A DNA stretch of 64,000 nt, from positions 1-64,000 of the forward strand of contig CAIXFN010000110.1 in NCBI GenBank assembly GCA_903918755.1. The letters run 5' to 3'. Shown here piece after piece: positions 8,259-47,609 of this stretch (its first letter is position 1; each line of letters opens with the position of its first letter). This DNA comes from an uncultured Pedosphaera sp. Lineage in GTDB: Bacteria; Verrucomicrobiota; Verrucomicrobiia; Limisphaerales; Pedosphaeraceae. Below the pieces are notes generated by a model that saw nothing but the letters and a program-made list of their open reading frames with translations, had not been told where the DNA came from and ran no database searches. Position numbers and translations under genes: made by a program.

Positions 8259-8260
8259 AG

Positions 8261-10518: not shown

Positions 10519-10527
10519 GGCATCACC

Positions 10528-26735: not shown

Positions 26736-29555
26736 TTACGGGTGATACAAGCGGTAGTAGCGCTGCGCGCCGGGAGTGACGGTCAGGGTCACGGATTGAT
26801 CCAAGCCGTCGGCCGCGGGTGTGGCAGCAACCGTGGTCCAGGTGCCCGAACCGAGGTTCGTACTGATTTGCACAGTGTAACCGAGCGCGTTCGCGGGCCA
26901 GGTCAGCACAAGGCCCGCTGGCGAGGTGGACGCCCGCAGCGTCGGCGGGGTCTCCGGGAGGCACTTACCAAGGCTGCCGGCGGCGTAAATGCTGTAAATC
27001 TCGTCCAAAGACAAAGCGCGGTGGTAGATCGAAACCTCATCTTCCGCGCCATTGAGGAAGAATTGCCCCTCGGCCGAGCCCAGAGTCAGCGGCACACCGG
27101 GATTCGGAATGTTGATGGAACTACTCACCGTGGAACTCACCGCCCCATCCGCATAGAGGGTAAACGTGTTGCCACTGCGGGTCACCGCCACGTGATGCCA
27201 CTCGTTGAGCGACGGGTTAAAAGAACCCGAACCAAGCTTAAGCAGCCCGCCGCCGACTCCAGTCACCGCCAACTGCAGAACGCCACCATTGAGCCAAAAT
27301 ATCCACTTGTTGGCGTTCCCAGGTCCCGCATCATCGGCCAGGAAAGCGCAGGTTCCATTCGCTGCCAGTTTCACCCACAATTCAATCGTGAAATCGTTCG
27401 TGCCCAATCCCCAGGCGGAGCTCGCCGCAGCCTGGGCATACTGACCTGTGCCATTGAAACTGAAGGCCTGGCCCACTTCACCAGAAGTATAGCCGGCTCC
27501 GTTCACCAAGGTAAGCGCGTTGGTGCCGGCCAGATCTCCGCCATTCCCTTCCGCCGTCCACCAGGACACCAGTCCATTCGTGATCGCAGCGCAAATCGGC
27601 GGGTTGACCGTCAAGGTGGCGACCGCACTAGTGGCAATTCCATACGAATTGGCAACCAAGCAGATATAACCGCCGGCATTTGTCAACTGAAGGTGGGTCA
27701 AAGTCAACGTGGAGTTCGTCGCCCCCGTCAAAGGGTTGCCATTAAAAAGCCATTGATAGCGCAAGGGCGCGACCCCGGAGGCGATGGCGGAGAGATTGAC
27801 GGTGACATCGACAGCTACACTTTTGCTGGCGGGTGGCAGCACCACAACGGGAGGCGCGGTAGTCACGCAACGCCCGAGATAGCCGGCGTTGTAAACCCTG
27901 GCGATCTCGGGCGCACTCAGCGACCGGTTGTAAAGGGCGATCTCATCCTCGGCGCCGCGAAAATAGGCGGGCGAATAGCCAGCGTAGGAATTCAAGAGCC
28001 GACCAAAGGCCAGGGCCGTTGCCGGGTTGGGCATCGCAACGGAGTTGGTGACGGCCGAAAGTAACACCCCATCGCCATAAAATGAGAACACTGTTCCTTG
28101 ATGAGTGAGCGCCACATGATGCCACTGGTTCAGGGCGGGCGTGAAAGCCGAGGAATGAATTACCACCAAGGGACGGGGCACGGACGCCACCGCGAACTCC
28201 AAGACACTGAAGTTCCATGACAATGCCCATTCATTGGCGGAGTTCCCGCCCCCTTCGTTAGCCACCAGTGGCTGGAGCAGGAAGTCCTGGACGGTGGGCC
28301 GCATCCAAAGTTCAATGGTGAAATCGTTACTGGCCACGCCCAAAGCCAGGGCAGGATTATACGGCACAATCACGCACTGGCCCCCCGACGGATCAAAGTT
28401 AAAGGCCTGGCCAACTTCCCCGGCCATGAAGCCAGCCCCATTGACCAGCGTGCCATGATTGGTCCCAAAGGAATCCTGCGCCGTGCCTTCTCCGCCCCAC
28501 CAACCGAGCAGGCCATTGCTCACCTCGGCACAACTGCGGGGATTGACCGTGAGCGTGGCCACCGCAGAGGTGACCATCCCATAAGCATTGGAAATCACCA
28601 GCACATAGGACCCTGAATCCGTAAATTGGACGTTGGTGAGCACGAGCGAGGAGGCCGTGGCGGAGGCCAGATTGGTGCCGTTCAAACCCCATTGATACAC
28701 CAGTGGCCCGGTACCGGAGATCAGGCTGTTGAAGGTAACCAAGGCGCGCTCATAAACCGTCTGGCTCTGCGGTGGAGTGAGCACCACGGGCGTAATCGGC
28801 ACGCTACATTTGCCCAAACTGCCCGCCCGATAAATGAGATTGATTTCGTTGTCGGTGAGCGCGCGGTTGTAGAAGGAAATTTCATCCTCCTCACCATTCA
28901 GAAAAAACGTGCCTTCCGCGGAACCGAACGTGAGGGGCGCAAGGGCATCCGGAATCACCACGCTGCTGGTTGCTCGCGAAATCACGGCGCCATCGGCATA
29001 CAGTGTAAAAGCACTGCCACTCCGGGTTATGGCCAAATGGTGCCATTCGTCCAGGCTGGGACTATACGCGACGGAGCCCAAATGCGACGGCCCCACGCCG
29101 GCGTTATATACGGCCATTTCCAAAGTGCCATTATTAAGCCACAAAACCCATTTATTGTGGCCGTTAGCTCCGGCATCACACGCCAGAAATGCCTGGCTGG
29201 AGGCGGCCGAGGTTAGCTTGACCCAAAATTCAATGGAAAAGTCGGCCGAGCCAAACGCCCATTTGGAACTGCTCGGAACCTGGGCATATTGATCGATCCC
29301 ATTGAAGGCGAAGGCAGTTCCAACTTTCCCGGCAGCGTAACCGGCGCCGTTCATCAGCGTGGCGTTTTGACCATCGATGGAATCCGCGCCATTGCCATCC
29401 CCGGACCATGAAGCAAACAATCCGGCGGGGGTGGGAGCGCAGGACTGGGCCAGGCTGTTACGACCGGACAGCCCGAAGGCCACAGCGGTGAGAACAAGTA
29501 TTTTGGCAAGGGAAGCAAAGCCAACCTTGGCTACATTTCGGCAAGAATTTTTCAT
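26736..29555 (-). CDS. Secreted LamG/Ig protein 1 (short form without cohesin-dockerin)
   Basis: A 939-residue secreted protein. Signal peptide: NVAKVGFASLAKILVLTAV, then LAQ cleavage near 37. Order: LamG (40-248), Ig-like (250-338), LamG (340-562), Ig-like (563-651), LamG (653-866), then a C-terminal domain (868-939) with LVLTWPANALGYTVQ and the ending RYYRLYHP. Each LamG has FSIE/FTIE.W.K...W and W(H)H(L/V)A.TR.G..F.LYADG, as in concanavalin-like lectin folds that bind glycans or proteins. The two cohesin-like domains and the dockerin region of the other three paralogues are absent: LamG 3 joins the C-terminal domain directly. A ribosome site (aaggaaaa) precedes the ATG at 29555. Confidence 0.9.
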   Translation of the reverse strand: MKNSCRNVAKVGFASLAKILVLTAVAFGLSGRNSLAQSCAPTPAGLFASWSGDGNGADSIDGQNATLMNGAGYAAGKVGTAFAFNGIDQYAQVPSSSKWAFGSADFSIEFWVKLTSAASSQAFLACDAGANGHNKWVLWLNNGTLEMAVYNAGVGPSHLGSVAYSPSLDEWHHLAITRSGSAFTLYADGAVISRATSSVVIPDALAPLTFGSAEGTFFLNGEEDEISFYNRALTDNEINLIYRAGSLGKCSVPITPVVLTPPQSQTVYERALVTFNSLISGTGPLVYQWGLNGTNLASATASSLVLTNVQFTDSGSYVLVISNAYGMVTSAVATLTVNPRSCAEVSNGLLGWWGGEGTAQDSFGTNHGTLVNGAGFMAGEVGQAFNFDPSGGQCVIVPYNPALALGVASNDFTIELWMRPTVQDFLLQPLVANEGGGNSANEWALSWNFSVLEFAVASVPRPLVVIHSSAFTPALNQWHHVALTHQGTVFSFYGDGVLLSAVTNSVAMPNPATALAFGRLLNSYAGYSPAYFRGAEDEIALYNRSLSAPEIARVYNAGYLGRCVTTAPPVVVLPPASKSVAVDVTVNLSAIASGVAPLRYQWLFNGNPLTGATNSTLTLTHLQLTNAGGYICLVANSYGIATSAVATLTVNPPICAAITNGLVSWWTAEGNGGDLAGTNALTLVNGAGYTSGEVGQAFSFNGTGQYAQAAASSAWGLGTNDFTIELWVKLAANGTCAFLADDAGPGNANKWIFWLNGGVLQLAVTGVGGGLLKLGSGSFNPSLNEWHHVAVTRSGNTFTLYADGAVSSTVSSSINIPNPGVPLTLGSAEGQFFLNGAEDEVSIYHRALSLDEIYSIYAAGSLGKCLPETPPTLRASTSPAGLVLTWPANALGYTVQISTNLGSGTWTTVAATPAADGLDQSVTLTVTPGAQRYYRLYHP

Positions 29556-29609
29556 GACGTTTTCCTTGGTACAACTCCGACCGTCATGGTCGATAGTGCG
29601 AAGCTTAAT

Positions 29610-29650
29610 GCGATAAACCTCTATTATTCAAATATCTTAACAAATGAATT
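29610..29650 (-). promoter_or_regulatory. Candidate promoter of LamG gene 1
   Basis: On the minus strand this A/T-rich block reads aattcatttgttaag...aataatagaggtttatcgc, 55-95 bp before the ATG. The elements aattcatt and aggtttatcgc recur in the same order and at a similar distance upstream of LamG gene 3 (40395-40434). A ttcatt/taatag pair spaced 16 bp could be a sigma-70-like promoter; this is tentative. Confidence 0.4.
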
Positions 29651-29740
29651 AACATAAGTCAAACAAAAAATGAAGTAGGAATCGCCGCTATCAGAGGAGA
29701 TCTGGATTTTGACGGTCAATTTCAATCCGCGCGCCGACGC

Positions 29741-29804
29741 GAAACTGGACCCGTCTTCGCTGAGAGCAGCTACGCCGGGCAGGTTAAATGTCCGGGACCT
29801 GGAC
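29741..29804 (+). repeat. Dispersed repeat, split copy
   Basis: Starts gaaactggac and ends aaatgtccgggacctggac, the two ends of the 30-bp repeat, with about 35 bp of extra sequence between them. Confidence 0.55.
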
Positions 29805-30086
29805 TCGGGGGGGGAACCCCGGGGATTGATTGACCACAGATGGCTCAGAGTGCACAGATGCGAATCGATCAAACTGGGGACACGGTTGGCGAGGCGAACT
29901 CGGCCAGTGGTGGCGCGAAACTGGACTAAGTGTCCGGAACCTGGACTCGGAGGGGGGAACCCCGGGGATTGATTGACCACAGATGGCTCAAAGTGCACAG
30001 ATGCGAATCGATCAAACTCGGAGAACAGTTGGCGAGGTGAATTCTGCCAGTGATGCCCGCGAAACTGGATTAAGTTTGTTTAACCT
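29801..30086 (+). repeat. Tandem repeat of about 142 bp, two copies
   Basis: Copy 1 is 29801-29942 and copy 2 is 29943-30086. Both begin ggactcgg, run through ggattgattgaccacagatg, cagatgcgaatcgatcaaac and ggcgagg, and end with the dispersed gaaactgg element. A third unit begins at 30087 and stops after ggactcgg. Confidence 0.85.
29917..29946 (+). repeat. Dispersed 30-bp repeat, copy c
   Basis: Plus-strand copy, gaaactggactaagtgtccg then gaacctggac; differs from the minus-strand reading of 801-830 at two positions. Confidence 0.8.
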
Positions 30087-30090
30087 GGAC
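30061..30090 (+). repeat. Dispersed 30-bp repeat, copy d
   Basis: Plus-strand copy, gaaactggattaagt then more diverged (ttgttta) before acctggac. Confidence 0.7.
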
Positions 30091-30526
30091 TCGGCGGGAT
30101 ATGGTCCCGGGGGTAGCACCAATTACGAGGTCGGGCGAGCGGATTAAGAAACGAGTTTATCGATAACGGATTAGGCTCAACGTGCTGTCGGTGGGGCGGG
30201 GCCGCGCTTCGGTTGAGACGGCACCTGGCGACGGCCACGATCGGGACCCCACCCCGGTTGGTCCGGCGGAGGCAGGCAGCCGTAGCAATATGTCAAAGAG
30301 CAGGCCGGGCGGAACCTTGGTTCCAGAGGGCCAAAAACCAGGCGTTGCCGAGCAGGCGGTATGGCGGCAGCCGAAACAGGATCGACCCCCCAAGCATTTT
30401 AGCACGAATTGGGGGGCTTTGAATTGCTACGGGAGGAATTTAGGCGCATTTGGTTGGTAACGTCTTGGGCGGCAAACAGCCCGAATTTGGAAATCACGTC
30501 CGTCTTGACCTGGATAAGGCGTCAGC

Positions 30527-30561
30527 AAAAAAAAGCCCCCGATGATGCCATCGGGGGCTTT
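30527..30561 (-). terminator. Rho-independent terminator of LamG gene 2
   Basis: Perfect 13-bp stem (aaagcccccgatg/catcgggggcttt) with a 4-nt loop at 30532-30561. On the minus strand it is followed by a run of eight T (30527-30534 as A on the plus strand). It lies 16 bp after the stop of the 1408-residue LamG gene. Confidence 0.93.
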
Positions 30562-30576
30562 GCTCCGCTTCCCTTA

Positions 30577-33500
30577 TCAAGGATGGTAGAGACGGTAGTA
30601 GCGCTGCGCGCCGGGAGTCACGGCCAAGGTCACCGATTGATCCGAGCCATTGGCAATGGGGGTCGCCGAAACCGTGGTCCAGGTGCCGGATCCGAGGTCC
30701 GTGCTGGTTTGCACGGTGTAACCGAGCGCATTGACCGGCCAGGTCAGCACAAGGCCCGCGGGCGAGGTGGCGGCCCGCAGCGTCGGTGCATTCAGCGTAC
30801 CCACGATGATCACGCCGTTTTGATAGGTCGTGGACAAGGCGATCGCGTTGGCGTCGGTGACCTGGCTGACGGTCGGTCGGTTGGTGAACAGGAGGTTGGT
30901 GCTGTTGGAGGCGGTGGGCAACACCGTGAAGTTCAGGCGCGCCACTTCGTTGGTGCCGGCACTGAATACGGTTCCGGGGGGCAAACTCAGGAGCACGGCC
31001 ACCACGCCATTCGTGGCGGTGTGGTTCGTGTTGACGATCAAGTTGGCACCCGCGTCCCCGCTGCCCAAGGTCACCCCAGTGAGTTGCACCTGCGCGGGAT
31101 CCGATTGCAGGCTGAAACCGATGCCGTTCTCGTTGCCCAACGCGGTCAACTGCACGGATACCTGGCAGGTCTGAGACGGCAACGCCGCGGCGTTGACCAC
31201 TTTCAAAATGCGCCCGGAATCCGCCGGCCCGAAATCCAACCCGACCGGTTGCTTAAAGAAGCCCAGCGGACCATTCACATCCACCGTGGGACCGCCGGCC
31301 ACTGTCAAGGGATCGAGACCGGCGGCGTAGCGCCCCGCCTGCACCCAATCCGCGACGGTCAACTGCCCGTCACCGTAGGTTGAGCGCGGCGCGCAATCCA
31401 CGCGCTGGAATTCGCTGGCGTTGGTAATCGTGTCCAAACCGGCCACAAACCGGCCCACCTGCACCCAGTCGATGATGGTTACCAGCCCATCACCGTAGGG
31501 CAGTGGCGCCGCATCGCCTTCAGAACCCAGGAAGGGGATGGTGACGGTACCAGCAGCAAATGCCGAAGACAGTTTGTTCGCCAGCGGATCGGAAATCTGG
31601 CGCGCCGTCGGGAGGTCGCCAAACGTGATGGGTGTAACGATTGGATTGGTGCCGGAATTTACAAAGAAGCTGACTTCCGCCACTTCCTGGGTTCCAGCCG
31701 CAAAGGTGCTACTACCCGCCATCGCCAGCGCGATGCCGATCCGGCCCACCCCGGCAGAATTAGTATTGAAAATTGTGGTGGCATTGGTCACGTCGGTCCC
31801 TGCGACCACGTTGGCAAATGTCAATAGTGCCGGGTTAAAGTTAATCGTGCAACCCAAGGCGTTCTCCGTACCCAGGGAACGGAGCGTGATGGGCACGAGG
31901 ACAATGCCTGAAGTCGCCGTAACGCTACTCACCTGCACCAGGGAGGGTGGCGGCAAAACCGTGAGCAAGGCATTGCTACTGACGACCGAACCGCTCAAGT
32001 TGGTAACGATAACGGAATAATTCCCCGCATCGGCGCCGGTGACATTCGTCAATGCCAGGAGGGCATTGGTCGCGCCGGGGAGGTTGACACCATTCAGTTG
32101 CCACTGGTAATTCAGGGGCGCCGGGCCAAAAACTCCCACCGTAAAGCTGACGTTAGCCCAAGAGGGGACAACCTTGCTTAGCGGTTGCGTGAAGATCGTA
32201 GGCGGGATTGGCGGCAGACACTTACCAATGCTCCCGGCTACATAAATACTGCTGATCTCATCCAAAGACAAGGCGCGGCTGTAGATGGCAACTTCATCTT
32301 CCGCGCCGTTGAGGAAGAATTGACCCTCAGCCGAGCCAAGAGTCAGAGGCACTCCAGAATTGGGAATGTTAACAAAGCTGGTCGCCGTGGAACTCACGGC
32401 ACCATCCGCATAGAGCGTAAAGGTGCTGCCGCTGCGGGTAACGGCCACGTGATGCCATTGATTCGAAGGGTTGAAGGAACCGGAACCGAGATAAACCGGT
32501 CCGCTGGCCGGTCCGTTCACATGTAACTGCAACACGCCCCCGTTGACCCAAAATATCCACTTGTTGGCGTTATAAGTTCCCGCGTCATCGGCCAGAAGCG
32601 CGTAGGTTCCGTTCGCTGCCAATTTCACCCACAGTTCAATGGTGAAATCGTTCGTGCCAAATCCCCAGGCAGAATTGGCAGCGGCCTGCGCATATTGATT
32701 TACGCCATTAAAACTAAAGGCCTGGCCGACTTCGCCAGCGGTGTACCCGGTGCCGTTCACCAAAGTAAGCACGTTGGTGCCCGCCAGATCTCCGAGATTT
32801 CCTTCCGCCGTCCACCAAGATACCAAGCCATTCGTGATCGAGGCACAAGTTGGCGGATCGACGGTCAAAGTGGCCAGCGCACTAGTGGAACTCCCAAATG
32901 CATTGGAGACCAGGAAACTGTAGCCGCCAGCGTTGGTATATTGGAGACCCGCCAAGATCAGCGTGGAGTTCGTTGCTCCGGCCAAGGGGCTGCCATTAAA
33001 AAGCCATTGATAGGAAAACGGGGCCAACCCCGAGGCGCTTGCCGAGAAGCTGACAGTGGCGTTTACGGTCGCACTCTTGCTGGTTGGTTGCCCCACCACC
33101 ACGGGGGCTGCCGGGGTCACACAACGCCCGACATAACCGGCGGCGTAAATCCCGGCGATATCCGTCCCGCTCAGGGCCCGGTTGTAAAGTGCTATTTCAT
33201 CCATAGCCCCACGAAAGTATTTGGTCGCGTTACCGACATAAGCATTTACCAGTCGACCAAAGGTCAAGGCCGTTCCCGGATTGGGCATCGCCACGGAGTT
33301 TGTGACGGCCGAAAGTAGCACCCCATCTCCGTAAAATGAAAACACTGTTCCATTATGGGTGACCGCCACATGATGCCACTGGCTCAGAGCTGGCGTAAAG
33401 GTAAACGAACGAATTATCGCTGAACCACGCGTCGGATTCGCAGCTAGCAACTCCAGAACATTATCGTTCAACGAAAATGCCCAGGAATTATTTTGAACCC

Positions 33501-34803
33501 CGCCACCATCATTACCCACCAAAGGCTGGAACCCCCCGGCCGTCGGCCGCATCCAGAGTTCAATGGTGAAATCATTACTGACCACACCCAAAGCCAGGGC
33601 CGGACTGTAAGGCACAATGACGCACTGCCCCCCCGACAAATTAAAGTTAAAGGCTTGCCCTACTTCGCCGGCAATGAAGCCAGCCCCATTGACCAGCGCG
33701 CCATGATTCGTCCCGAAGGAATCCTGCGCCGTGCCTTCCCCGGCCCACCAACCAAGCAGGCCATTGCTCACATCAGCACAACTACGGGCATTGACCGTGA
33801 GCGTGGCGACCGCGGAAGTGATCATTCCATATGCATTGGACACCACCAGCGAATAAGCACCCGAATCCGCAACTTGGGTGTTGGTAAGCACCAGTGTCGG
33901 GGATGTGGCGGCCGGCAAATTGGTCCCGTTCAAAACCCATTGGCAGGCCAAAGGCCCTGTTCCGGAGACCAAAGTGCTTAAGGTGACAAGAGTGCCCGCA
34001 TAAACGGTCTGGCTCTGCGGTTGCGTGAGCACCACAGGTGCGATCGGACCGCTACATTTGCCCAAACCGCCCGCCAGGTAAATGAACTTGATATCAGCTT
34101 CACTCAGCGCACGGTTATAGATGGCGATTTCATCCTCCGCCCCTCCCAGAAAAAACGTGCCTTCTGCGGAACCAAACGTCAGCGGCGCACCGGCATCCGG
34201 AATCACCACGTTGCTCGTCGCCCGGGAAATCACCGCGCCGTCGGCATAAAGCGTAAATGTACTGCCGCTGCGGGTTATGGCCAAATGATGCCACTGGTTC
34301 AGCGAGGGACTGTAAGCTACGGAGCCCACATAGGACGCCCCACCACCGGCGTTGAACACGTGCATTTCCAACGCCCCATTATCGAGCCAGAAAATCCATT
34401 TGTTATTGCCAAAGGCTCCGGAATCACAAGCTAGAAATGCCTGACTCGCCGCTGGCGAAGTCAATTTAAACCATAATTCAATGGAAAAGTCCGCCGATCC
34501 AAACGCCCATTTGGAGCTGGCCGGCACCTGGGCATATTGATAGCTACCGTTGAAGGCGAAGGCCGTCCCCACCTCTCCGGCTGCATAACTGGCGCCGTTC
34601 ATCAGTGTGGCGTTTTGGCCACCGATGGAGTCGAGGCCGTTGCCTTCGCCTGACCACGAAGCGATTAATCCGGCAGGAGTCGGTGCGCAGGACTGGGCCA
34701 AGGTGGTGCGCCCGAACAGCCCGAAGGCGACAGCGGTGAAAGCGAGCATCTTGGCAAGGGAAGCAAATGCAGCCTTGGATGAATTTCTGCCGAATTTTTT
34801 CAT
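30577..34803 (-). CDS. Secreted LamG/Ig/cohesin-dockerin protein 2
   Basis: A 1408-residue secreted protein. The ATG at 34803 follows aaggaaa and begins the signal peptide (SSKAAFASLAKMLAFTAVAF, then LAQ). Order: LamG (40-246), Ig (250-337), LamG (340-560), Ig (562-650), LamG (652-865), Ig (868-957), cohesin-like (960-1090), two dockerin-like EF-hand segments (1095-1165; YGDGLVTIIDWVQVGRFVAG and YGDGQLTVADWVQAGRYAAG), cohesin-like (1185-1325), and the C-terminal domain ending RYYRLYHP. Cohesins and dockerins bind each other in cellulosomes; both in one chain suggests intra- or inter-chain assembly, which is inference. It ends in a strong terminator. Confidence 0.9.
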   Translation of the reverse strand: MKKFGRNSSKAAFASLAKMLAFTAVAFGLFGRTTLAQSCAPTPAGLIASWSGEGNGLDSIGGQNATLMNGASYAAGEVGTAFAFNGSYQYAQVPASSKWAFGSADFSIELWFKLTSPAASQAFLACDSGAFGNNKWIFWLDNGALEMHVFNAGGGASYVGSVAYSPSLNQWHHLAITRSGSTFTLYADGAVISRATSNVVIPDAGAPLTFGSAEGTFFLGGAEDEIAIYNRALSEADIKFIYLAGGLGKCSGPIAPVVLTQPQSQTVYAGTLVTLSTLVSGTGPLACQWVLNGTNLPAATSPTLVLTNTQVADSGAYSLVVSNAYGMITSAVATLTVNARSCADVSNGLLGWWAGEGTAQDSFGTNHGALVNGAGFIAGEVGQAFNFNLSGGQCVIVPYSPALALGVVSNDFTIELWMRPTAGGFQPLVGNDGGGVQNNSWAFSLNDNVLELLAANPTRGSAIIRSFTFTPALSQWHHVAVTHNGTVFSFYGDGVLLSAVTNSVAMPNPGTALTFGRLVNAYVGNATKYFRGAMDEIALYNRALSGTDIAGIYAAGYVGRCVTPAAPVVVGQPTSKSATVNATVSFSASASGLAPFSYQWLFNGSPLAGATNSTLILAGLQYTNAGGYSFLVSNAFGSSTSALATLTVDPPTCASITNGLVSWWTAEGNLGDLAGTNVLTLVNGTGYTAGEVGQAFSFNGVNQYAQAAANSAWGFGTNDFTIELWVKLAANGTYALLADDAGTYNANKWIFWVNGGVLQLHVNGPASGPVYLGSGSFNPSNQWHHVAVTRSGSTFTLYADGAVSSTATSFVNIPNSGVPLTLGSAEGQFFLNGAEDEVAIYSRALSLDEISSIYVAGSIGKCLPPIPPTIFTQPLSKVVPSWANVSFTVGVFGPAPLNYQWQLNGVNLPGATNALLALTNVTGADAGNYSVIVTNLSGSVVSSNALLTVLPPPSLVQVSSVTATSGIVLVPITLRSLGTENALGCTINFNPALLTFANVVAGTDVTNATTIFNTNSAGVGRIGIALAMAGSSTFAAGTQEVAEVSFFVNSGTNPIVTPITFGDLPTARQISDPLANKLSSAFAAGTVTIPFLGSEGDAAPLPYGDGLVTIIDWVQVGRFVAGLDTITNASEFQRVDCAPRSTYGDGQLTVADWVQAGRYAAGLDPLTVAGGPTVDVNGPLGFFKQPVGLDFGPADSGRILKVVNAAALPSQTCQVSVQLTALGNENGIGFSLQSDPAQVQLTGVTLGSGDAGANLIVNTNHTATNGVVAVLLSLPPGTVFSAGTNEVARLNFTVLPTASNSTNLLFTNRPTVSQVTDANAIALSTTYQNGVIIVGTLNAPTLRAATSPAGLVLTWPVNALGYTVQTSTDLGSGTWTTVSATPIANGSDQSVTLAVTPGAQRYYRLYHP

Positions 34804-35160: not shown

Positions 35161-35206
35161 AACAGCCCACGGCAGGAAGGCACCGATGGCCCCCCTGCCG
35201 CAACAA

Positions 35207-38200
35207 TCAAGGATGATAGAGCCGGTAGTACCGCTGCGCGCCGGGAGCCACGGCCAGGGTGACCGATTGATCCGAGCCGTTGGTGACGGGCGTGGCCGCC
35301 ACGGTGGTCCAGGTGCCGGAACCCAGGTCCGTGCTGCTTTGGACCGTATAACCGAGCGCGTTCACCGGCCAGGTCAACACCAGGCCCCCGGACAAGGCGG
35401 TTGCCCGCAACGTCGGCGCGGTCAACGTGCCCACGATGATGGCCCCATTTAGATACGTCGTGGACAAGGCGATCGCGTTGGCGTCGGTGACCTGACTTAC
35501 CGTCGGACGATTGGTGAACAAAAGGTTGGTGCTGTTCGAGGCGTTGGGCAACACCGTGAAGTTCAGGCGCGCCACTTCGTAAATGCCGGGGCTGAATACT
35601 GATCCGGGCGGCAGGCTCAGCAGCACGGCCACCACGCCATTGGTGGCGGTGTGGTTAGTATTGACAATCAGATTGGCGCCCACGTCCCCACTGCCCAGGG
35701 TCACCCCCGAGAGCTGCACCTGCGCGGGATCCGATTGCAGGCTGAAACCAATGCCGTTTTCATTGCCCAGCGCGGTCAATTGCACGGATACCTGGCAATT
35801 CTGGGACGGAAACGCCGCGGCACTCACCACTTTCAAAATGCGACCGGAATCGGCCGGGCCGAAATCCAGTCCGACCGGTTGCTTGAACGACATCGGGCCA
35901 TTCACATCCACCGTGGGACCGCCGGCGACCGTCAAGGGATCCAGTCCCGCCGCGTACCGACCGGCTTGCACCCAGTCCGCGACCGTCAACTGCCCATCGC
36001 CGTAAGTCCCACGCGGCGCACAATCGACGCGTTGGAATTCGCTGGCGTTCGTAATTGTATCCAAGCCGGCGACAAAGCGGCCCACCTGCACCCAGTCGAT
36101 AATGGTCACAACCGAATCACCGTTGGGCAGCGGTGCCACATCGCCTTCATACCCCAAGAAGGGTATCGTGACGGTGCCGGAAGCGAAAGCCGAGGCCAAC
36201 TTGTTCGCCAGCGGATCGGAAACCTGGCGCGCCGTCGGGACATCACCAAACGTGATGGGAGTAACGACGGGATTGGTGCCAGAATTGACAAAGAAGCTGA
36301 CCTCCGCCACCTCCTGGGTGCCGGCCGAAAAGGTGCCACCACCCGCCAACGCCAGCGCAATGCCAAGCCGGCCCGCCGCAGCGGAATTAGTGTTAAAAAT
36401 GGCCGTTGCATTCGTCGCACCCGTCCCCGGGGCAACGGCGGCAAACGTCAATAACGAGGCGTCAAAGTTAACTGAGTACCCCAGGGCATTCTCGGTCCCC
36501 AGCGAACGAAGCGTTATGGGCACCACGACGATCGCGGAAGTCGCCGTCACGCTACCGGCCTGCACCAGCGAAGGCGGCGGTAAGACTGTGAGCACGGCAT
36601 TACTACTGGCAACCATGCCGCTTAGATTCGTGACGATCACCGAATAATTCCCGGCATCCGCACCGGTGACATTGGTCAGGCTCAGGGAAGCATTGGTCGC
36701 GCCGCTGAGGTTGCCCCCGTTCAACTGCCATTGATAAGCCAGCGGCGGAGGACCGGCGGCCCCCACCACAAAACTGACATTCGTCCAGGAGGGCACAATC
36801 TGGCTTTGCGGTTGCATCAGGATCGAAGGCGGAACCTGCGGCAAACACTTGCCCTGGTTTCCGGCCAGATAAATACTGCTGATCTCATCGAAAGACAGGG
36901 CGCGATTGTAAATCGAAACCTCATCTTCCTCGCCATTGAGAAAGAACCGTCCTTCGGCCGCGCCGAGGGTCATCGGTACCCCAGGAGTCGGAATACTTTC
37001 ACTGGTGTAGAGCGAAGAACTCACGGCCCCATCCGCATAGAGAGTAAAGGCGCTGCCGCTGCGGGTGACCGCCACGTGATGCCATTGGTTGAGCGAAGGG
37101 TTAAAGGCACCGAAGCCAAGGGCCAGCGGTCCGGTGGCGGGCCCATTCACATGCATTTGCAGAATGCCGCCATTGAGCCAGAATATCCACTTGTTGGCGT
37201 TCTCCGTTCCTGAATCGTCGGCCAAAAAAGCGACATTTCCACTTGATTTTAGATTCACCCAAAGTTCAATGGTGAAATCATTCGTGCCAAATCCCCAAGC
37301 TGGGCTCGGCGCAGCTTGGGCGTACTGATTTACGCCATTGAAACTAAAGGCCTGGCCTGTTTCACCGGAACCGTAACTGGCACCGTTCACCAACGTAAGC
37401 GTGTTGGTACCGGCCAGATCTCCGGTATTTCCTTCCGCCGTCCACCACGACACCAAGCCATTGGTGATCGAAGCACACGTAGGCGGATTGACCGTCAAGA
37501 TGGCCACGGAACTGGTCGTGGTGCCATACGGATTGCTAACCAGGATGGTATAGTTGCCGGAGTTGGTTAACTGAACGTGGGGCAAAGTCAACGTGGAGTT
37601 CGTCGCCCCCGTCAAAGGGTTGCCATTAAATTGCCACTGATAACCCAACGGTGCCACCCCGGAGGCGACAGCGGCCAGACTGGTCGAGGCGTTCTCGGTC
37701 ACGCTCTTGCTCGTTGGCTGGCCTACAACAGTGGGGCTCGCGGGAGTCACGCAACGTCCGAGAGCAGCCGCGTTGTAAATGCCGGCGATATCAGCCGCGC
37801 TCAGGGCCTGATTGTAGAGGGCGATTTCATCCACCGCGCCATTAAAGTAGTAAGGCGAATGATTATATCCAGGCATGGTGTTAATCGCGCGGCCAAACAC
37901 CAGAGGCGTGGCCGGGGTCGGCATGGCAACCGAATTTGAGACCGTCGAAAGCAAGACCCCGTCGCCATAAAATGAAAAAACTGTTCCATTCCGCGTCACG
38001 GCGACATGATGCCATTGGTTCAGAGCTGGGGAATAAGCCCCGGAGCGCAGAGAAACGGCTGCACCGGAGGGATTCGCCACAAACATTTCCAAGGCCCCAA
38101 AGTTCCATGAGAATGCCCATTGATTGTATTGCGCGCCACCCGCATCGTTCGCCACCAAAGGCTGCCCCCCTCCGGCGACGGGCCGCATCCAAAGTTCAAT

Positions 38201-40859: not shown

Positions 40860-41243
40860 CTAATACGGATGCACGTGGTCAGTTCCGGTCCAAACAACTG
40901 AATTTGAACGTCCGATGGTCGCCGTGATGTCTCCCCGGTAACTGGGCTCCAGGTAAACGTCCGCACTGGCCAGATTGGTTTTGCCGGTCGCATCCAGAAA
41001 GGAGATGGCCAGATCGGAGTCGCCTTCCGGTTTGACATGTAACGTGACGGATTTTCCGGGGGTAAGTCTCCCCACGATGGGGCTTTTTCCGCGGATGATC
41101 ACGGTGAGCGCAGTGATGGGAGTGGCGGTGGCATTTCTAATTCTCAATGATACCCCGGGTTCAGCAATGAAGCGATGCCAGAAGGCAAATCCCAGGACAG
41201 CCAAGACCGCCAAGTTGAATAGAACGAAAAGTTTTCGCGACAT
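40860..41243 (-). CDS. Small membrane-anchored or exported protein
   Basis: A 127-residue protein. The N-terminus is a typical signal peptide or anchor (MSRKLFVLFNLAVLAVLGFA). The rest looks like a small beta-rich domain (VSLRIRNATATPITALTVII, LTPGKSVTLHVKPEGDSDLA) ending in DHVHPY. Such sequences resemble small immunoglobulin-like extracytoplasmic domains, but I do not recognise a family. No clear ribosome site is seen before the ATG at 41243. It stands alone, with a possible hairpin downstream at 40809-40826. Confidence 0.65.
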   Translation of the reverse strand: MSRKLFVLFNLAVLAVLGFAFWHRFIAEPGVSLRIRNATATPITALTVIIRGKSPIVGRLTPGKSVTLHVKPEGDSDLAISFLDATGKTNLASADVYLEPSYRGDITATIGRSNSVVWTGTDHVHPY

Positions 41244-41762
41244 TGCAGCAGTGATTTACGAAATAATGGGCAGCGATTTGCGGTGAAGGATACCAGGATA
41301 TCGGTAAAAGGCAAACGCCCGGGGCCGACTTGTCGAATGCCTTATGCAGGGGTTGGTGCGGGCAGGCTTGCGGATGCGAGATTAGACAGGAGGGACAGGA
41401 TTTTCAGGATGGCAGGTGGGGTGCCGCGCCGCTGGGGCTTGGTACTACTAAAGAAGGTGGCGGGCTATAAACATGGCGCGCCTATGGCGCTTTTGACGAC
41501 ATTCCAGGTCTGCCGACTAGTTTTTCGCGTTACGGATGGTTCGGCGGTTGGCAGGAATGAGAAAGGAGGAATCCGAATGCCGCTTCAGCTTCGCGCGCTT
41601 CGCGATCTTCTCTTCAAAAATCCCACAATTCCTTTATTCAGCCCGCCGACGTGCCTTTGTGGTTTTTACCGCGAAGGGCGCGATGGAACGCAAAGGGCGC
41701 GGCGGATGCGCCGACCGCGTCAACGCGGAACTCCAAGCCGGGGACTCCTAACCTGGGAGGAG
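41244..41762. other. Non-coding gap
   Basis: No supported gene. It includes simple phrases such as gggacaggattttcaggatg and gcgcgcctatggcgc. At about 41711-41738 (gccgaccgcgtcaacgcgga then actccaag) it has a diverged copy of the palindromic repeat seen at 43008 and 43139, with a different stem sequence. Confidence 0.5.
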
Positions 41763-42779
41763 CTACGGAGTCGGGAGGTTCACCAGAGCGGTTTGGTCCA
41801 GAAACGGTTGCGCATCGAGGAAGTTTGCGAGGTTGGTGGTGGTGACGCGCGCGATTTCCCGCAGGGCTTCCTCGGTCAGAAACGCCTGATGGGCGGTGAT
41901 GAGCACGTTGGGAAAGGTGAGGAGGCGCGACAGTTCATCGTCCAGGAGGATTTCATCGGAATGATCCTCGAAAAAGATACCCTCCTCTTCCTCGTAAACA
42001 TCCAGCGCCACCCCGCCGACCTGGCCATTTTTCAGGGCGTCAATCAGGGCGGCGGTGTCCACGAGTTTTCCCCGGCTGGTATTGAGCAGGTAGGCGCCCG
42101 GTTTCATGCGGGCAAAGTTTTCCGCGTTGAGCAGGTAACGTGATTCGGGCGTGAGGGGCAGATGGAGCGACACGATGTGACTGCGCCCCAGCAGCGTCGG
42201 CAGATCGACGTATTCCACTCCGCGAGCGGCCGCCCACTCCGGAGCGGGGAACGGATCGTAGGCAAGCACCTGGGTCCCAAAGCCCTGGAAGATTTGGGCC
42301 ACGATCTTACCGATTTTGCCAGTGCCGATGATCCCGACGGTTTTGCCAAACAGGTCAAAGCCCACAAGTCCGCTGAGGGAAAAATTATGTTCCCGCACCC
42401 GATTGTAAGCGCGGTGGATTTTGCGATTGAGCGCCAGCAAGAGCGCGAAAGTATGCTCAGCCACGGCGTGCGGCGAATAAGCGGGCACGCGGATGACGGC
42501 CAGGCCCAATTTTCGCGCCGCGACGAGATCCACGTTGTTGAATCCCGCGCAACGGAGCGCCACGAGCCGGACGCCGGCCTGCTGGATCTGCGCCAGGCAC
42601 GCGGCATCCAGCCGGTCATTCACAAAGACGCACACCGCGCGCGCGGCCCCGACCGTGGCCACGGTTTCACTGCTGAGCCGGAATTCATGGAACTGCAGTT
42701 TCAGCCGGCTGGCGGCAGGGGCGGCTTCAAAATACTGCCGGTCGTAGGGTTTGGTGTCGTAAAAGGCGATGGTGCTCAT
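41763..42779 (-). CDS. D-2-hydroxyacid dehydrogenase (D-lactate dehydrogenase-like)
   Basis: A 338-residue NAD-dependent dehydrogenase. The ATG at 42779 is chosen because STIAFYDTKPYD is the usual N-terminus of the LdhA branch; an in-frame ATG at 42836 adds 19 unrelated residues. Visible are LVALRCAGFNNVDL with the substrate-binding Arg region, YSPHAVAEHTFALLL, the Rossmann motif GKTVGIIGTGKIGKI, LPLTPESRYLLN, the catalytic Arg in LLNTSRGKLVDT, Glu in DVYEEEEGIF and the late His in NVLITAHQAF. It probably reduces pyruvate to D-lactate or a similar oxoacid. It could serve fermentation, together with the PFOR encoded about 14 kb away. Confidence 0.92.
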   Translation of the reverse strand: MSTIAFYDTKPYDRQYFEAAPAASRLKLQFHEFRLSSETVATVGAARAVCVFVNDRLDAACLAQIQQAGVRLVALRCAGFNNVDLVAARKLGLAVIRVPAYSPHAVAEHTFALLLALNRKIHRAYNRVREHNFSLSGLVGFDLFGKTVGIIGTGKIGKIVAQIFQGFGTQVLAYDPFPAPEWAAARGVEYVDLPTLLGRSHIVSLHLPLTPESRYLLNAENFARMKPGAYLLNTSRGKLVDTAALIDALKNGQVGGVALDVYEEEEGIFFEDHSDEILLDDELSRLLTFPNVLITAHQAFLTEEALREIARVTTTNLANFLDAQPFLDQTALVNLPTP

Positions 42780-43007
42780 AGTTTGACGGACCGAACGGCA
42801 ACCGCCGGCGCGGAATGGGTGAACTTCAGCCCGCAAGCCCAGCGAAGTGGCCCCGGCGGAACAAGAGAAGGGTAGTTTGATTCTGCCGGGTGGGCAAGTT
42901 TATGTGGAGCACCGCCCCAGCGCCGCTGAATGCAGGAGTGGCCGCCAAATCGGAGTCCGATTGGCCGCAGGCTCGAATCTTGCCAACGCTCCCGTCGGCC
43001 CACATCC

Positions 43008-43040
43008 GACCGCCTGAAGGCGGAACTCCCAGCCTGACGC
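43008..43040. repeat. Palindromic repeat, copy 1
   Basis: Core accgcctgaaggcggaact with the palindrome ccgcctgaaggcgg, followed by ccNagcctgacgc. Repeated at 43139-43171; the core also appears inverted at 43063-43078 (tccgccttcaggcgg). Confidence 0.8.
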
Positions 43041-43138
43041 GGCTCCCTCCCGGGTTCGTAGATCCGCCTTCAGGCGGTTGCCGCGTCCTATTCGCCAGAA
43101 AGCTGTCAGCCGGCCCACGATTCCGGCGTCCCACACCC

Positions 43139-43171
43139 GACCGCCTGAAGGCGGAACTCCAAGCCTGACGC
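43139..43171. repeat. Palindromic repeat, copy 2
   Basis: Same 33-bp unit as 43008-43040 with one substitution, directly downstream of LamG gene 4 in its direction of transcription. The 14-bp palindrome can form a hairpin in RNA of either strand but has no T-run. Confidence 0.8.
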
Positions 43172-43187
43172 ATTCCCGCCTTAACCA

Positions 43188-46100
43188 TCAAGGATGGTAG
43201 AGGCGGTAGTAACGCTGCGCGCCGGGGGTGATCGGAAGGGTGACCGATTGATCGGCGCCGCTGGCGACGGGGGTGGCAGAAACGGTGGTCCACGTGCCGG
43301 ATCCCATGTCCGTGCTGGTTTGCACGGTGTAACCGAGAGCGTTCAGCGGCCAGGTCAGAGCCACGCCCGCGGGCGAAGTGGTTGCCCGCAGGGTCGGCGC
43401 CGTCAGCGTACCCACGATGATCACGCCATTTTGATACGTCGTGGACAAGGCGATCGCATTGGCGTCGGTGACCTGACTTACCGTCGGCCGGTTGGTGAAC
43501 AGAATGTTGGTGCTGTTGGAGGCGGTGGGCAAGAGCGTGAAGTTCAGGCGCGCCACTTCGTAGGTACCGGCACTGAATACGGTTCCGGGCGGCAAGCTGA
43601 GGAGCATGGCCACCACGCCATTGGTCGCAGTGTGGTTGGTGTTCACAATCAAATTGGCGCCCGGATCGCCACTGCCCAGGGTCACGCCCGTAAGCCGCAC
43701 CTGCGCGGGATCCGATTGCAGGCTGAAACCGACCGCGTTTTCATTGCCCAGTGCGGTCAGTTGCACGGATACCCGACAAGTCTCGGACGGCAGCGCCGCG
43801 GCATTCATCACTTTCAAGATGCGGCCGGAATCCGCCGGGCCAAAATCCAGACCCACGGGTTGCTTGAAGCCCAGCGGGCCGTTCACATCCACCGTGGGTC
43901 CCCCCGCCACTGTCAGGGCATCCAGTCCGGCGGCATAGCGACCGGCCTGTACCCAATCCGCCACGGTCAACTGGCCGTCGCCAAAGGTGTCGCGGGGCGC
44001 ACAATCAGCGCGCTGAAACTCGCTGGCGTTGGTGATGGTATCCAAACCGGCGACGAAGCGGCCCACCTGCACCCAGTCAATCAGCGTCACAGCGCTGTCC
44101 CCGTTCGGCAGCGGCGCGACGTCGCCTTCATAACCCAGCCAGGGAATCGTCACGGTGCCCGCCACGAAGGCGGAAGGAAGAATATTGGCGAGTGAATCGG
44201 AAACCTGCCGGGCAGTCGGGGTATCGCCGAAGCTGATGGTCGCCGTCACGGGATTGGTGCCGGATTTGACAAAGAAGCTCACGTCCGCGACCTCCTGCGT
44301 GCCCACCGGGAAGGTGCTGGTGCCCGGCAACGCCAGCAACACCCCCAACCGACCGAGGGAAGCGGCATTCGTATTGAAGAAAACGGTGGCCGTGCCGCCA
44401 ATGGCCGAACCAGAACTAATTCCGGCGAACGTCAGATAAGCCGGATTAAAGTTCAGGCTGAATCCCAGACCGTTCTCGGTGCCGCGCGCCAGGAGCGTCA
44501 CCGGCACCGTCACCACGGCCGAGGTGGCGGTGACGCTAGAAACTTGCGCAAGCGACGGCGGGGGCAAAACCGTCAGCACGGCGTTGCTGCTCGTCACCGC
44601 CCCATATTGATTGGTGACGGTGACGGTGTAAACGCCGGCGTCCGTGGCCGTGACGTTCGTTAGCGAGAGCACCGAGTTGGTGGCATTCGCCAGCAGATTA
44701 GTCCCGAATTGCCATTGGTAAGCCAGGGGAGCGTTACCGGAAACGGCAACCGAGAAATTTACGTTCGTAAACGTGGGCACTGTCTGGCTCGCCGGTTGGG
44801 TGAGGATCGCGGGCGGGAATTGGGGCAAACATTTGCCCGCGCTGTCGGAGTTGAAAATGGCGCCCACTTCGGCGGGTGCCAAGGCCCGATTGTAAAAGGA
44901 AACCTCATCAATCTGGCCCTTGAAGTAGTCACGGATGGAAAAACTGGCATAGGGCCCCGCCCCGATCCCAATGGGATTGGGCGCATTGAGCACGGTAAGC
45001 GGCGGATCCGTGCGCTGGGCAACCAAACTGCCGTTGACAAAAATCTGGCGGGTCCCGTTGGTCTGGTTGTAAACCGCCGCCACATGGGCCCAAACCCCAT
45101 TGGTTACCGCATTATTCGGCGAATTGAACACATGGAGCGAACCGTTGCCCTGATTCGCCGCATCCGCAATGCCGAATTGGAGAATGTTGCCCGGCACAAG
45201 CACGAAAACGTAGCAACGCTCATTGGCATAATCGCCGGTATCCCCCCATTTGCCGAAAATCATCTGGGCGCCGGAAGCCGCTTGCGGCAAGACCCAGGCT
45301 TCAATGGAAAAACTGCCGGTGGGGCTCAGGCTGGGTTGGCTGGGAATCCGGAGATATTGATTGGTGCCGTTAAACTTGAATGACTGCCCCACCTTTCCCG
45401 GAGCAAAACCCACGCCATTGACCAGCGATCCGTTATTGCCGCCGACCAAATCCAGGGCGCTACCCTCCCCCGCCCACCAACTGACCAGGCCATTAAGAAC
45501 CGGCGCGCAGACCGCCTGGGTTACAGTCAGGCTGGCAACCTGACTGGTCATGGCACCGAAATAGTTGGTGACCACTGCGGAATACCCCCCGGCCGCCGAC
45601 AACGGGAGATTGGTTAAAACAAGACTTGACGCAGTCGCCCCATTGAGTATGGCGCCATCAAATAACCATTGATAGGCCAGGGGCGCGGAGCCACTTGCGG
45701 AAATACTGAACGTTACATTGCCGCCTTGAGCAAGAGCCCGGCTCAGCGGTTGCGCGACGATAACCGGGGGCTGGCCAGTCACAGTCAGGGTCGCCACCTG
45801 ACTGGTTGCGGAACCGAACAAGTTGGCGACCACGGCGGAATAATCGCCTGCGGCCGAAAGGGGCAGGTTGGTTAAAATCAAACTTGCTCCGGTTGCTCCA
45901 TTGATTACGGCACCATTGAACAACCATTGATAGGCCAACGGCGCGGAACCGCCCGCGGAGATATTGAAAGTCACGTTCGCGCCCAGAGCAAGGGCCCGTC
46001 CCAAAGGCTGGGCGATGATGACCGGGGGCTGGCCAGTCACAGTCAGAGTCGCCACCTGACTGGTTGCGGAACCGAACAAGTTGGTGATCACCGCGGAATA

Positions 46101-47609
46101 ATCGCCCGTGGCCGACAGGGGCAAATTGTTCAAAACCAAGTTTGCGGAGTTGGCGCCATTGATTACCGCACCATTAAACAACCATTGATAGGCCAGCGGC
46201 GCGGAACCGCCCGCGGAGATATTGAAAGTCACGTTCGCGCCCAAAGCGAGCGCCCGGCCGAGCGGTTGGGAGATGATGACCGGCGGCTGGCCGGTCACAG
46301 TCAGAGTCGCCACCTGGCTGGTCACGGCCCCGAAAAAGTTGGTGATCACCGCGGAATAATCGCCCGTGGCCGACAGGGGCAGATTGTTCAAAACCAAATT
46401 TGCGGAGTTGGCGCCATTGATTACCGCACCATTAAACAACCATTGATAGCTCAACGGAGCGGAGCCGCTCGCGGAAACATTGAAGGTCACATTCGCGCCC
46501 AGCGGAAGCCCCCGCCCCTGCGGCTGGAGGTTGATGACCGGGGCCAGACCGGTCACCGTAAGGGTGGCGTTGCTGCTCAAGGCCATCCCATAGGCATTGG
46601 TCACGAGGACGGAATAAACGCCGTTGTTCGCGGGCACGGGGTTGGTCAGGGTATAGGAGGAACCGGTGGCACCCGCCACCGTGTTCCCGTCAAATAACCA
46701 TTGATAGGCCACGGGTCCCGAGCCCGTCACGGCGACGCTGAAACTGGCCGACTGCCCCGGGATCACCGACTGATCCTGGGGCTGGCTGATGATTTGCGGG
46801 GGGGCGGGTTGGGTGCACTTACCTGCCGCCCCGGCCAGATAAAGTCCCCGCACCTGAACAGGGTTCAAGGCCACATTGTAAAAAGAGACCTCATCAATCT
46901 TGCCGGTGAAGAAATCACGAATGGAATCGCTAGCATAAGGCCCCGCGCCGATTCCCACCGGATTGCCGGCGTTCAAGATGGTGATCGGCGGGTCCGTGCG
47001 CTGAGCCACGACCACCCCATTCAAATAAATCTGCCGGGTGCCGCTAATTTGATCATAAACCGCCACGACATGAGACCAGACATTGAAAGAAATAACGTTA
47101 TTGCCCGTTTGCAACCCCTGAAAAGCACCATTCCATTGGTTGGCGAGATCGGAAATCGCAAAAATCATCGCATTGCCCGGAACAATCGCGAAAACGTAGC
47201 AACGTTCATCGGAATAATCACCGGTATCCCCCCACTTGCTGAGAATAATCTGGGCTCCGGCGCTGGGTAGCGGGTAAATCCAGGCCTCGATGGTAAAACT
47301 CCCAGTGGGGTGGAGACTCGGGTTATCCGCGATTTGCACATACTGGTTGGCGCCATTGAAAGTAAATGACTGCCCCACCTCGCCGGCGGCGAAGCCCACC
47401 CCGTTGACCAACACCCCGTTATTGGTCCCGGCAAAATCGTTGGCATTACCCTCGGCCCGCCACCAACTTACGAGTCCAGGGGGCGTCGGCAGGCAGTCCT
47501 GAGCTCCGGCTGGGAAACTGGAAAACAGGAAAAACGCCAACGCGGACACTCCGGCCAAGCCATGAAAAGAACGGGAAAACGGTCGAAGCAGCGTGCGGCA
47601 AACATGCAT
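43188..47609 (-). CDS. Secreted LamG/multi-Ig/cohesin-dockerin protein 4
   Basis: A 1473-residue secreted protein. The ATG at 47609 has ggag 10 bp upstream and begins a signal peptide (basic RTLLRPFSRSF, then GLAGVSALAFFLFSSFPAGA); an upstream in-frame ATG at 47705 is less likely. Order: LamG of a different subtype (40-260, with SFTIEAWIYP and KWGDTGDYSDERCYVF), Ig 1 (265-354), four tandem near-identical Ig-like domains of 86 residues (355-698), a second LamG of the same subtype (700-925), Ig 6 (930-1020), cohesin-like (1022-1155), dockerin-like pair (1158-1232), cohesin-like (1245-1390) and the common C-terminal domain. The 3' third is almost identical to paralogues 2 and 3; the front is diverged. 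Confidence 0.9.
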   Translation of the reverse strand: MHVCRTLLRPFSRSFHGLAGVSALAFFLFSSFPAGAQDCLPTPPGLVSWWRAEGNANDFAGTNNGVLVNGVGFAAGEVGQSFTFNGANQYVQIADNPSLHPTGSFTIEAWIYPLPSAGAQIILSKWGDTGDYSDERCYVFAIVPGNAMIFAISDLANQWNGAFQGLQTGNNVISFNVWSHVVAVYDQISGTRQIYLNGVVVAQRTDPPITILNAGNPVGIGAGPYASDSIRDFFTGKIDEVSFYNVALNPVQVRGLYLAGAAGKCTQPAPPQIISQPQDQSVIPGQSASFSVAVTGSGPVAYQWLFDGNTVAGATGSSYTLTNPVPANNGVYSVLVTNAYGMALSSNATLTVTGLAPVINLQPQGRGLPLGANVTFNVSASGSAPLSYQWLFNGAVINGANSANLVLNNLPLSATGDYSAVITNFFGAVTSQVATLTVTGQPPVIISQPLGRALALGANVTFNISAGGSAPLAYQWLFNGAVINGANSANLVLNNLPLSATGDYSAVITNLFGSATSQVATLTVTGQPPVIIAQPLGRALALGANVTFNISAGGSAPLAYQWLFNGAVINGATGASLILTNLPLSAAGDYSAVVANLFGSATSQVATLTVTGQPPVIVAQPLSRALAQGGNVTFSISASGSAPLAYQWLFDGAILNGATASSLVLTNLPLSAAGGYSAVVTNYFGAMTSQVASLTVTQAVCAPVLNGLVSWWAGEGSALDLVGGNNGSLVNGVGFAPGKVGQSFKFNGTNQYLRIPSQPSLSPTGSFSIEAWVLPQAASGAQMIFGKWGDTGDYANERCYVFVLVPGNILQFGIADAANQGNGSLHVFNSPNNAVTNGVWAHVAAVYNQTNGTRQIFVNGSLVAQRTDPPLTVLNAPNPIGIGAGPYASFSIRDYFKGQIDEVSFYNRALAPAEVGAIFNSDSAGKCLPQFPPAILTQPASQTVPTFTNVNFSVAVSGNAPLAYQWQFGTNLLANATNSVLSLTNVTATDAGVYTVTVTNQYGAVTSSNAVLTVLPPPSLAQVSSVTATSAVVTVPVTLLARGTENGLGFSLNFNPAYLTFAGISSGSAIGGTATVFFNTNAASLGRLGVLLALPGTSTFPVGTQEVADVSFFVKSGTNPVTATISFGDTPTARQVSDSLANILPSAFVAGTVTIPWLGYEGDVAPLPNGDSAVTLIDWVQVGRFVAGLDTITNASEFQRADCAPRDTFGDGQLTVADWVQAGRYAAGLDALTVAGGPTVDVNGPLGFKQPVGLDFGPADSGRILKVMNAAALPSETCRVSVQLTALGNENAVGFSLQSDPAQVRLTGVTLGSGDPGANLIVNTNHTATNGVVAMLLSLPPGTVFSAGTYEVARLNFTLLPTASNSTNILFTNRPTVSQVTDANAIALSTTYQNGVIIVGTLTAPTLRATTSPAGVALTWPLNALGYTVQTSTDMGSGTWTTVSATPVASGADQSVTLPITPGAQRYYRLYHP
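45516..46547 (-). repeat. Four tandem 258-bp repeats encoding Ig-like domains
   Basis: Units are 46290-46547, 46032-46289, 45774-46031 and 45516-45773, exactly 258 bp each (86 residues). The middle units are nearly identical in DNA. Each encodes [QL]-x-P-V-I...QP..R.L..G.NVTF.ISA.GSAPL.YQWLF(N/D)GA and ends T.QVA.LTVT. No length change from unit to unit is seen. Confidence 0.95.

Follow-up and report, generated by a model that had tools for sequence, protein, structure and literature searches.

A cohesin, dockerin-like pair and cohesin cassette in putative surface proteins of an uncultured Pedosphaera and its relatives, with a possible role as an own-chain clasp

In cellulosomal scaffoldins, cohesin and dockerin folds are found on one polypeptide; the dockerin faces other proteins, and the enzymes bear stand-alone dockerins. 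We describe here a cassette in which a dockerin-like pair stands between two cohesins, towards the C-terminal ends of three putatively secreted proteins (P0002, P0003 and P0004) encoded in a 64,000-nt stretch of DNA from an uncultured Pedosphaera sp. (contig CAIXFN010000110.1; the whole stretch is called the window in what follows). The cassette shares with the scaffoldins the two folds on one chain, and among its structural matches are 3kcp and 4fl4, entries whose longer chains hold cohesin, X module and dockerin; unlike in the scaffoldins, 132 of 136 of the pairs described here precede a cohesin-like domain, and the genome is without a match to the Pfam dockerin model PF00404 at E 0.001. We see an even chance that the cassette is a calcium-dependent, self-matched clasp that closes mainly within its own chain (in cis), which we hold more likely than closure between copies of the protein.

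Outside cellulosomes, too, both modules have been described on one chain. Proteins of anaerobic methanotrophic (ANME) archaea carry a dockerin together with up to five cohesins; in the passages of that paper on which we draw, these proteins are non-cellulosomal, as the cassette is, but are scaffoldin-like and could localise other dockerin proteins, and those passages describe no fixed cohesin-dockerin-cohesin unit (PMC9012536). The planctomycete 'planctosome' adaptor, in the parts of its description used here, likewise unites a dockerin and a cohesin, plus HYR, on a single chain that starts from a signal peptide; it differs in its order (dockerin, HYR, cohesin) and in its proposed function as a bridge from peptidase to anchor (PMC6461901). 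A Lachnoclostridium scaffoldin with cohesin and dockerin on one chain is also on record, according to a passage of PMC11557425. Dual-binding-mode dockerins, as portrayed in excerpts of PMC5429695 and PMC4728124, have in common with the pair an internal two-fold symmetry and loop-end residues that lie at the cohesin, and both of their faces have the same specificity in two orientations, whereas the top couplings reported below assign the faces to different cohesins of one chain.

Within the order to which the organism belongs, at least 22 open reading frames (ORFs) are positive for the dockerin as well as the cohesin model of Pfam, the two sets of hits having been paired up by eye from contig and frame length. 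Sorted by eye, 14 of these have the dockerin first, seven the cohesin first and one (G048:C151) the order cohesin-dockerin-cohesin; in G096:C434 the second cohesin lies in another frame, hence there is no single ORF of that order. Most of the other PF00404 matches listed showed, again by eye, no cohesin in the same open frame. The view taken in the initial annotation, that both modules in one chain are exceptional, thus does not stand against these ORFs and the three published cases, and what is new is the regularity of the cassette rather than the co-occurrence of the two modules. No paper on the cassette was found, judged on titles and the starts of abstracts, nor one that brings Pedosphaera together with cohesin.

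Cohesin folds, a dockerin-like pair and their fixed order

The domain order proposed for the window proteins, namely LamG and Ig repeats followed by a first cohesin, the dockerin-like pair, a second cohesin and a C-terminal domain, holds for P0002-P0004 by translation and by the Pfam cohesin model PF00963, and for P0003 also by fold. The three proteins reach 46.1, 37.2 and 31.3 bits with this model, above its curated cut-off of 24.1, and each contains two matching stretches at E up to 1. Scanning the genome at E 0.001 gave five matches, four of them above the cut-off and all in the cluster; none lay outside the cassettes of the window. PF00963 was present, at the same threshold, in 57 of the 61 cassettes of a set (A3) made up of three from the window and 58 from relatives, and a profile of these 61 retrieves solved cohesins at 4e-9.

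An AlphaFold2 model of the cohesin 1, pair and cohesin 2 segment of P0003, the one window protein covered by the fold comparison, has a predicted local distance difference test score (pLDDT) of 93.4 and a predicted template modelling score (pTM) of 0.82, with low confidence at residues 230-242. In this model cohesin 1 superimposes on 1g1k_A (Z 18.8, root-mean-square deviation 1.8, 134 aligned residues) and cohesin 2 on 6kgd_A (Z 19.1, deviation 1.9, 136 aligned residues), and by modelled fold both domains of P0003 are cohesin jelly rolls. A plain Ig or fibronectin type III identity, which had been named as the outcome that would speak against cohesins, is ruled out for these domains by the same Z values. 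The pTM of 0.82, attained across a low-confidence linker, suggests that all three domains are firmly placed by the model.

For the acidobacterial relatives the cohesin call came largely from iterated profiles built from the window's cohesins. At E 1e-5, PF00963 was unlisted in six of nine relatives of one scan and in all ten of another. Of ten acidobacterial downstream domains scanned alone, one lay above the PF00963 cut-off and one more at E 0.063. A profile of 11 such domains matched cohesin 2 of the window with 99.5% probability in a profile comparison; it found solved cohesins only at E of 0.12 or higher, with unrelated rows at similar E.

For the dockerin-like pair, on which the initial annotation had suggested a search with Dockerin_1, sequence and fold part ways. 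PF00404 had no match in the genome at E 0.001, was not listed in P0002-P0004 even with E relaxed to 1, and at E 0.001 was not listed in any of the 61 cassettes either. No solved dockerin was retrieved by a single-sequence search or by an 82-row profile, the best rows of which were unrelated (E 0.22 or worse). Against a profile of 16 Pfam-type dockerins from the same order (A5; 20 of the 22 ORFs mentioned above were fetched and 16 used), the pair scored a probability of only 25%. We have thus rejected the identification of a dockerin by sequence. As a separate observation, many of the PF00404-positive dockerins of the order (L226-L245) are of a TTLDITLIRR type.

The model of the pair (AlphaFold2; pLDDT 95.0, pTM 0.88) consists of a helix, a short helix and a helix (residues 21-31, 40-46 and 61-71). 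Searched with Foldseek, it returned dockerins in the top 11 of 28 rows at weak E of 0.41-1.7; with VIA-align, all 27 rows were dockerin or cohesin-dockerin entries. The best row had Z 8.8 at 2.1 Å over 70 residues and 2ccl_B had Z 8.5 at 1.4 Å over 62 residues, values to be read with the tool's warning that helical models with Z under about 13 can reflect a common arrangement; that dockerins fill the whole VIA-align list is the stronger point. The aspartates at the first and last positions of the two loops are present in 100, 101, 102 and 102 of 102 ORFs of the order. The standard dockerin calcium loop has 12 residues and is duplicated; the loops of the window copies are 4-5 residues longer, between the first and fifth positions, and thus depart from that standard. 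Because the sequence searches found no solved dockerin, we base the call on the fold, the pattern of the loops and the place of the pair in the chain: by its modelled three-helix fold the pair is dockerin-like and lies outside the Pfam model. Calcium use would be expected from the families that it resembles.

The distribution of the cassette was followed with the dockerin-like pair alone as query. Six of eight family genomes carry the pair, as do 98 of 320 in the order. Of 288 genomes drawn evenly across the phylum, three have it, the window's own included; in the genomes listed for this draw, scoring extended to at most 18 first-look candidates. From the matches in the order 100 stretches were picked by hand (L138, which had no dockerin-like ORF, was dropped), and these contain 102 pair-bearing ORFs. 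A cohesin-like domain directly follows the pair in 100 of the 102, the two exceptions being L097, which runs off its contig, and L124, which ends at a stop within the cassette, and a cohesin directly precedes it in 83. Beyond the pair, the chain continues for a median of 233 residues (99 ORFs ending at a stop). Three acidobacterial genomes, a KSB1 genome and a Planctomycetota genome were reached via cassette loci and then searched with the pair alone, and all 34 matches that this search and the phylum draw gave outside the window's genome were fetched, in 30 further stretches. Among these 34 pairs, which come mostly from the three acidobacterial genomes, 32 are followed and 13 preceded by a cohesin-like domain, so that in total 132 of 136 pairs, from four phyla, are directly followed by one.

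A collection of the best 80 of 122 cassette loci, which favours cohesin-bearing copies and is excluded from that count, gives the linkers and hosts: 3-6 residues separate cohesin 1 from the pair in 56 of 60 cases and 17-49 residues the pair from cohesin 2, and the hosts are Pedosphaera, other Verrucomicrobia, Acidobacteria, KSB1 and Planctomycetota, with one locus each labelled Kiritimatiellae and Opitutae. The arms that precede the cassette vary, comprising LamG, Ig, FG-GAP, RCC1, PA14, BACON, PKD and reprolysin-type peptidase domains in 19 proteins, and in a KSB1 protein (L274) a Por_Secre_tail sorting domain lies C-terminal to it. The acidobacterial copies that were scanned carry PA14, BACON, He_PIG, DUF11, PPC or peptidase domains. 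A phage origin of the cassette was considered and rejected: the pattern matched viral contigs at 49 places, and no relative is encoded at any of them.

Couplings between the dockerin-like halves and the two cohesins

Mean-field covariation was computed on 99 distinct cassettes (effective number of sequences, Meff, 92), kinship being handled by identity weighting, shifted mappings and within-genome shuffles only. The pair S121 (cohesin 1) and I161 (dockerin half 1) ranked first of 10956 inter-domain pairs, and its symmetry equivalent, A201 (half 2) and T365 (cohesin 2), ranked second of 12533; a second symmetry-equivalent set, A32-V164 and G276-V204, ranked 6 and 12. The symmetric joint score was 11.46, which none of 3483 shifted mappings reached, the best of them coming near at 10.69. 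In 152 sequences of dockerin-like pair and cohesin 2, A201-T365 ranked first of 12312. Residues 161 and 201 immediately precede the last loop Asp. In known dockerins, positions 11 and 15 make cohesin contacts, in the part of PMC5429695 consulted, and S11-T12 contacts cohesin D39, in that of PMC4728124; the top couplings thus fall at classical interface positions. On both sides the commonest residue combinations are cohesin Ser with Thr and Val with Ala, with exceptions, and positions 32/164 and 276/204 separate matched (z 6.2 and 8.5) from crossed combinations (z 1.0 and 1.8). The odds ratios were 11.8 and 36.7 for matched and 3.0 and 2.9 for crossed combinations, using residue groups chosen after the coupling tables had been inspected. 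The pattern suggests that the halves are matched, half 1 with the upstream and half 2 with the downstream cohesin, the couplings being taken as probable physical contacts; it also supports the proposal of the initial annotation that the modules find their partners among their own kind.

Conservation and paralogue comparisons point the same way in part. In the order set, five positions of half 1, picked after the conservation table had been seen, were less conserved where the upstream cohesin was not found (74 sequences with, 25 without; p 0.001), compared with p 0.009 for half 2 and p 0.003 for the difference between the halves. The permutation ignores the tree, and among the sequences counted as having no upstream cohesin are ORFs truncated at the end of a contig, such as L112. 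In 19 genomes with several cassettes, genome labels being assigned by hand and five tests made, own-chain pairing exceeded paralogue shuffles with p 0.0105 for four pairs and p 0.0045 for the cohesin 1 side.

Several results weigh against so neat a wiring, and the choice of residue groups and of half-1 positions after inspection counts among them. The whole symmetric coupling maps are hardly correlated (0.094, compared with 0.068-0.108 for other pairings), and the symmetry is confined to the top few pairs. By mutual information, the crossed combination of cohesin 365 and dockerin 161 (z 5.2) exceeds the matched combination of cohesin 121 and dockerin 161 (z 4.2), and the pair set 119/155 and 363/195 fails to separate matched from crossed. 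Restricted to 74 sequences of the order, the first pairs hold, and A32-V164 and V204-G276 drop to ranks 113 and 114; in the other 25 sequences, ten tested pairs are all weak, ranking from 110 to 10732. Half 1 showed no relaxation in the other conservation set (p 0.636; 25 sequences having the upstream cohesin and 28 lacking it). The paralogue test was not significant on the cohesin 2 side (p 0.31), and on the 152-sequence set it gave p 0.10, or 0.028 for four pairs. The two modes of known dockerins are, as stated in the section of PMC5429695 that we cite, alternatives that lie a rotation of 180 degrees apart, and because of this the two cohesins may not bind simultaneously. Lastly, covariation cannot tell contacts in cis from homotypic contacts in trans.

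Contacts within one chain or between copies

As a mechanism, the own-chain clasp would consist of a dockerin-like module of two calcium-type helix-loop halves, set between two cohesins at the C-terminal part of the protein. The halves, being pseudo-symmetric, would recognise different partners, half 1 the upstream and half 2 the downstream cohesin; the clasp would need calcium, and its contacts would lie mainly within one chain. Standing just before the C-terminal domain, such a compact clasp could fix the pose of the long LamG/Ig arm outside the cell, where the arm, judging from its families, would bind a ligand; the two cohesins would be either bound together or alternating on the dockerin. 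More tentatively, at clearly less than an even chance, we propose that each dockerin face is reserved for one of the two cohesins of its own chain, a different one for either face, which would make the cassette a calcium-set intramolecular clasp or a two-way toggle; the further element of this proposal, that the clasp or toggle has become fixed in surface proteins of several phyla, is put forward with the same reserve.

The rival that survives best, which we consider possible but on the unlikely side, is homotypic binding in trans, in which the dockerin binds the cohesins of another copy and dimers, chains or a surface layer result. Assembly of this kind had been put forward in the initial annotation, in which a surface layer and a carbohydrate-capture system are at most candidate roles. 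Nearly every copy has both donor and acceptor, and copies are plentiful: there are four in the window's genome and 7, 8 and 15 pairs in the three acidobacterial genomes (G607, G608 and G609; L246-L271). The covariation, moreover, would also be expected for binding between identical chains. Set against this, the short linker before the dockerin, 3-6 residues long in 56 of 60 cases, and the pTM of 0.82 resemble a folded unit, and own-chain matching lies above the paralogue shuffles (p 0.0105). Of the two outcomes first envisaged, joining into chains and folding back, the evidence hence leans towards the latter without being decisive.

A cellulosome-like adaptor, whose dockerin or cohesins recruit separate proteins, appears improbable. 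Published adaptors do contain both modules, to judge from the portion of PMC6461901 used here, and one of 19 scanned cassette-bearing relatives has a reprolysin-type peptidase domain. The recruited partners are harder to find: at E 0.001 the genome is without a PF00404 match and its PF00963 matches are confined to the window's cassettes, and a genome-wide search for the dockerin pattern, as the initial annotation had suggested, gave only three matches to the pair outside the four cassettes, at E 0.38 or worse (two of the loci were read). Enzymes with stand-alone dockerins matching the cohesins of a scaffold, the hallmark of a cellulosome, were thus not detected by PF00404 or by a strong pair match beyond the four cassettes, and a cohesin-like domain follows nearly every pair. 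No more probable is a passive stalk in which the folds are kept, binding is lost and the domains serve as rigid spacers. Structural conservation alone would explain the fixed order and linkers; the symmetric covariation at classical interface positions and the lower conservation of half 1 in the order set where its cohesin was not found speak against it.

The gene cluster and what the cassette may mean

Four genes for LamG/Ig proteins, read from their translated ORFs, occupy positions 26736-47609 of the window, all on the minus strand, in a genome of 118 contigs that is 96.92% complete. They had been described as four tandem paralogues; P0001-P0003 are indeed adjacent, whereas P0004 is set apart from P0003 by a D-2-hydroxyacid dehydrogenase gene (41763-42836). 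All four proteins open with a signal-peptide-like stretch, as read from the sequence, and three of the four end with the cassette and a C-terminal domain; judging from their families, P0002-P0004 are probably secreted. An NCBIfam scan gave TafC for all four proteins, PRK09918.1 for one and nothing else, both at scores far short of the cut-offs.

P0002 (30577..34803; start ATG at 34803, length 1408 aa, frame open from 34911) carries cohesin 1 at 31537..31953, the dockerin-like pair at 31279..31524, cohesin 2 at 30802..31224 and the C-terminal domain at 30580..30789; both cohesins match PF00963, the second in the genome scan. P0003 (35207..40348; 1713 aa) has four LamG and four Ig domains, followed by cohesin 1 (36164..36580; PF00963, model residues 1-139), the pair as modelled by AlphaFold2 (35906..36154), cohesin 2 (35432..35854), assigned by fold and by a PF00963 match that at 22.8 bits in the genome scan lies below the cut-off of 24.1, and the C-terminal domain (35210..35422). 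In P0004 (43188..47609; start ATG at 47609, length 1473 aa, frame open from 47705), two LamG and six Ig domains, in the order LamG, Ig repeats, LamG, Ig, precede cohesin 1 (44145..44564; PF00963), the pair (43887..44135), cohesin 2 (43413..43835) and the C-terminal domain (43191..43403). Its cohesin 2 is missing from the five PF00963 matches of the genome scan at E 0.001 and was assigned from the second stretch found at E up to 1 and by alignment. P0001 (26736..29555; 939 aa), with a signal-like N-terminus, three LamG and two Ig domains, lacks both cohesin and dockerin-like part by translation and Pfam scan, and ends in a C-terminal domain with the motif YRLYHP (26739-26951). Like the preceding features, these lie on the minus strand. 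The YRLYHP-ending domain, which closes all four proteins, has 26 matches in the genome at E 0.001, on this and other contigs and in frames of widely varying length, and may serve these proteins in common for sorting or anchoring.

The same genome holds a fourth cassette outside the window (contig C56, 160979-161215); its cohesins were assigned by alignment because PF00963 does not reach E 0.001 there in the genome scan. The other three copies of the genome are 87, 82 and 53% identical to the cassette of P0002. Elsewhere in the window, positions 56368-61122 encode a 1584-aa protein of the pyruvate:ferredoxin oxidoreductase type (POR_N, POR, PFOR_II, Fer4 and TPP domains).

The pair also points to a lineage of dockerin-like modules that escapes the Pfam model Dockerin_1. 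Cohesins and dockerins are best known for joining separate proteins, and coupling within their own chain would put the two modules to another use; if the faces are indeed dedicated to different cohesins, the two-fold symmetry of the dockerin would gain a second use. The cassette may thereby help to explain how Verrucomicrobiota and Acidobacteriota hold their very long surface proteins in shape or join them.

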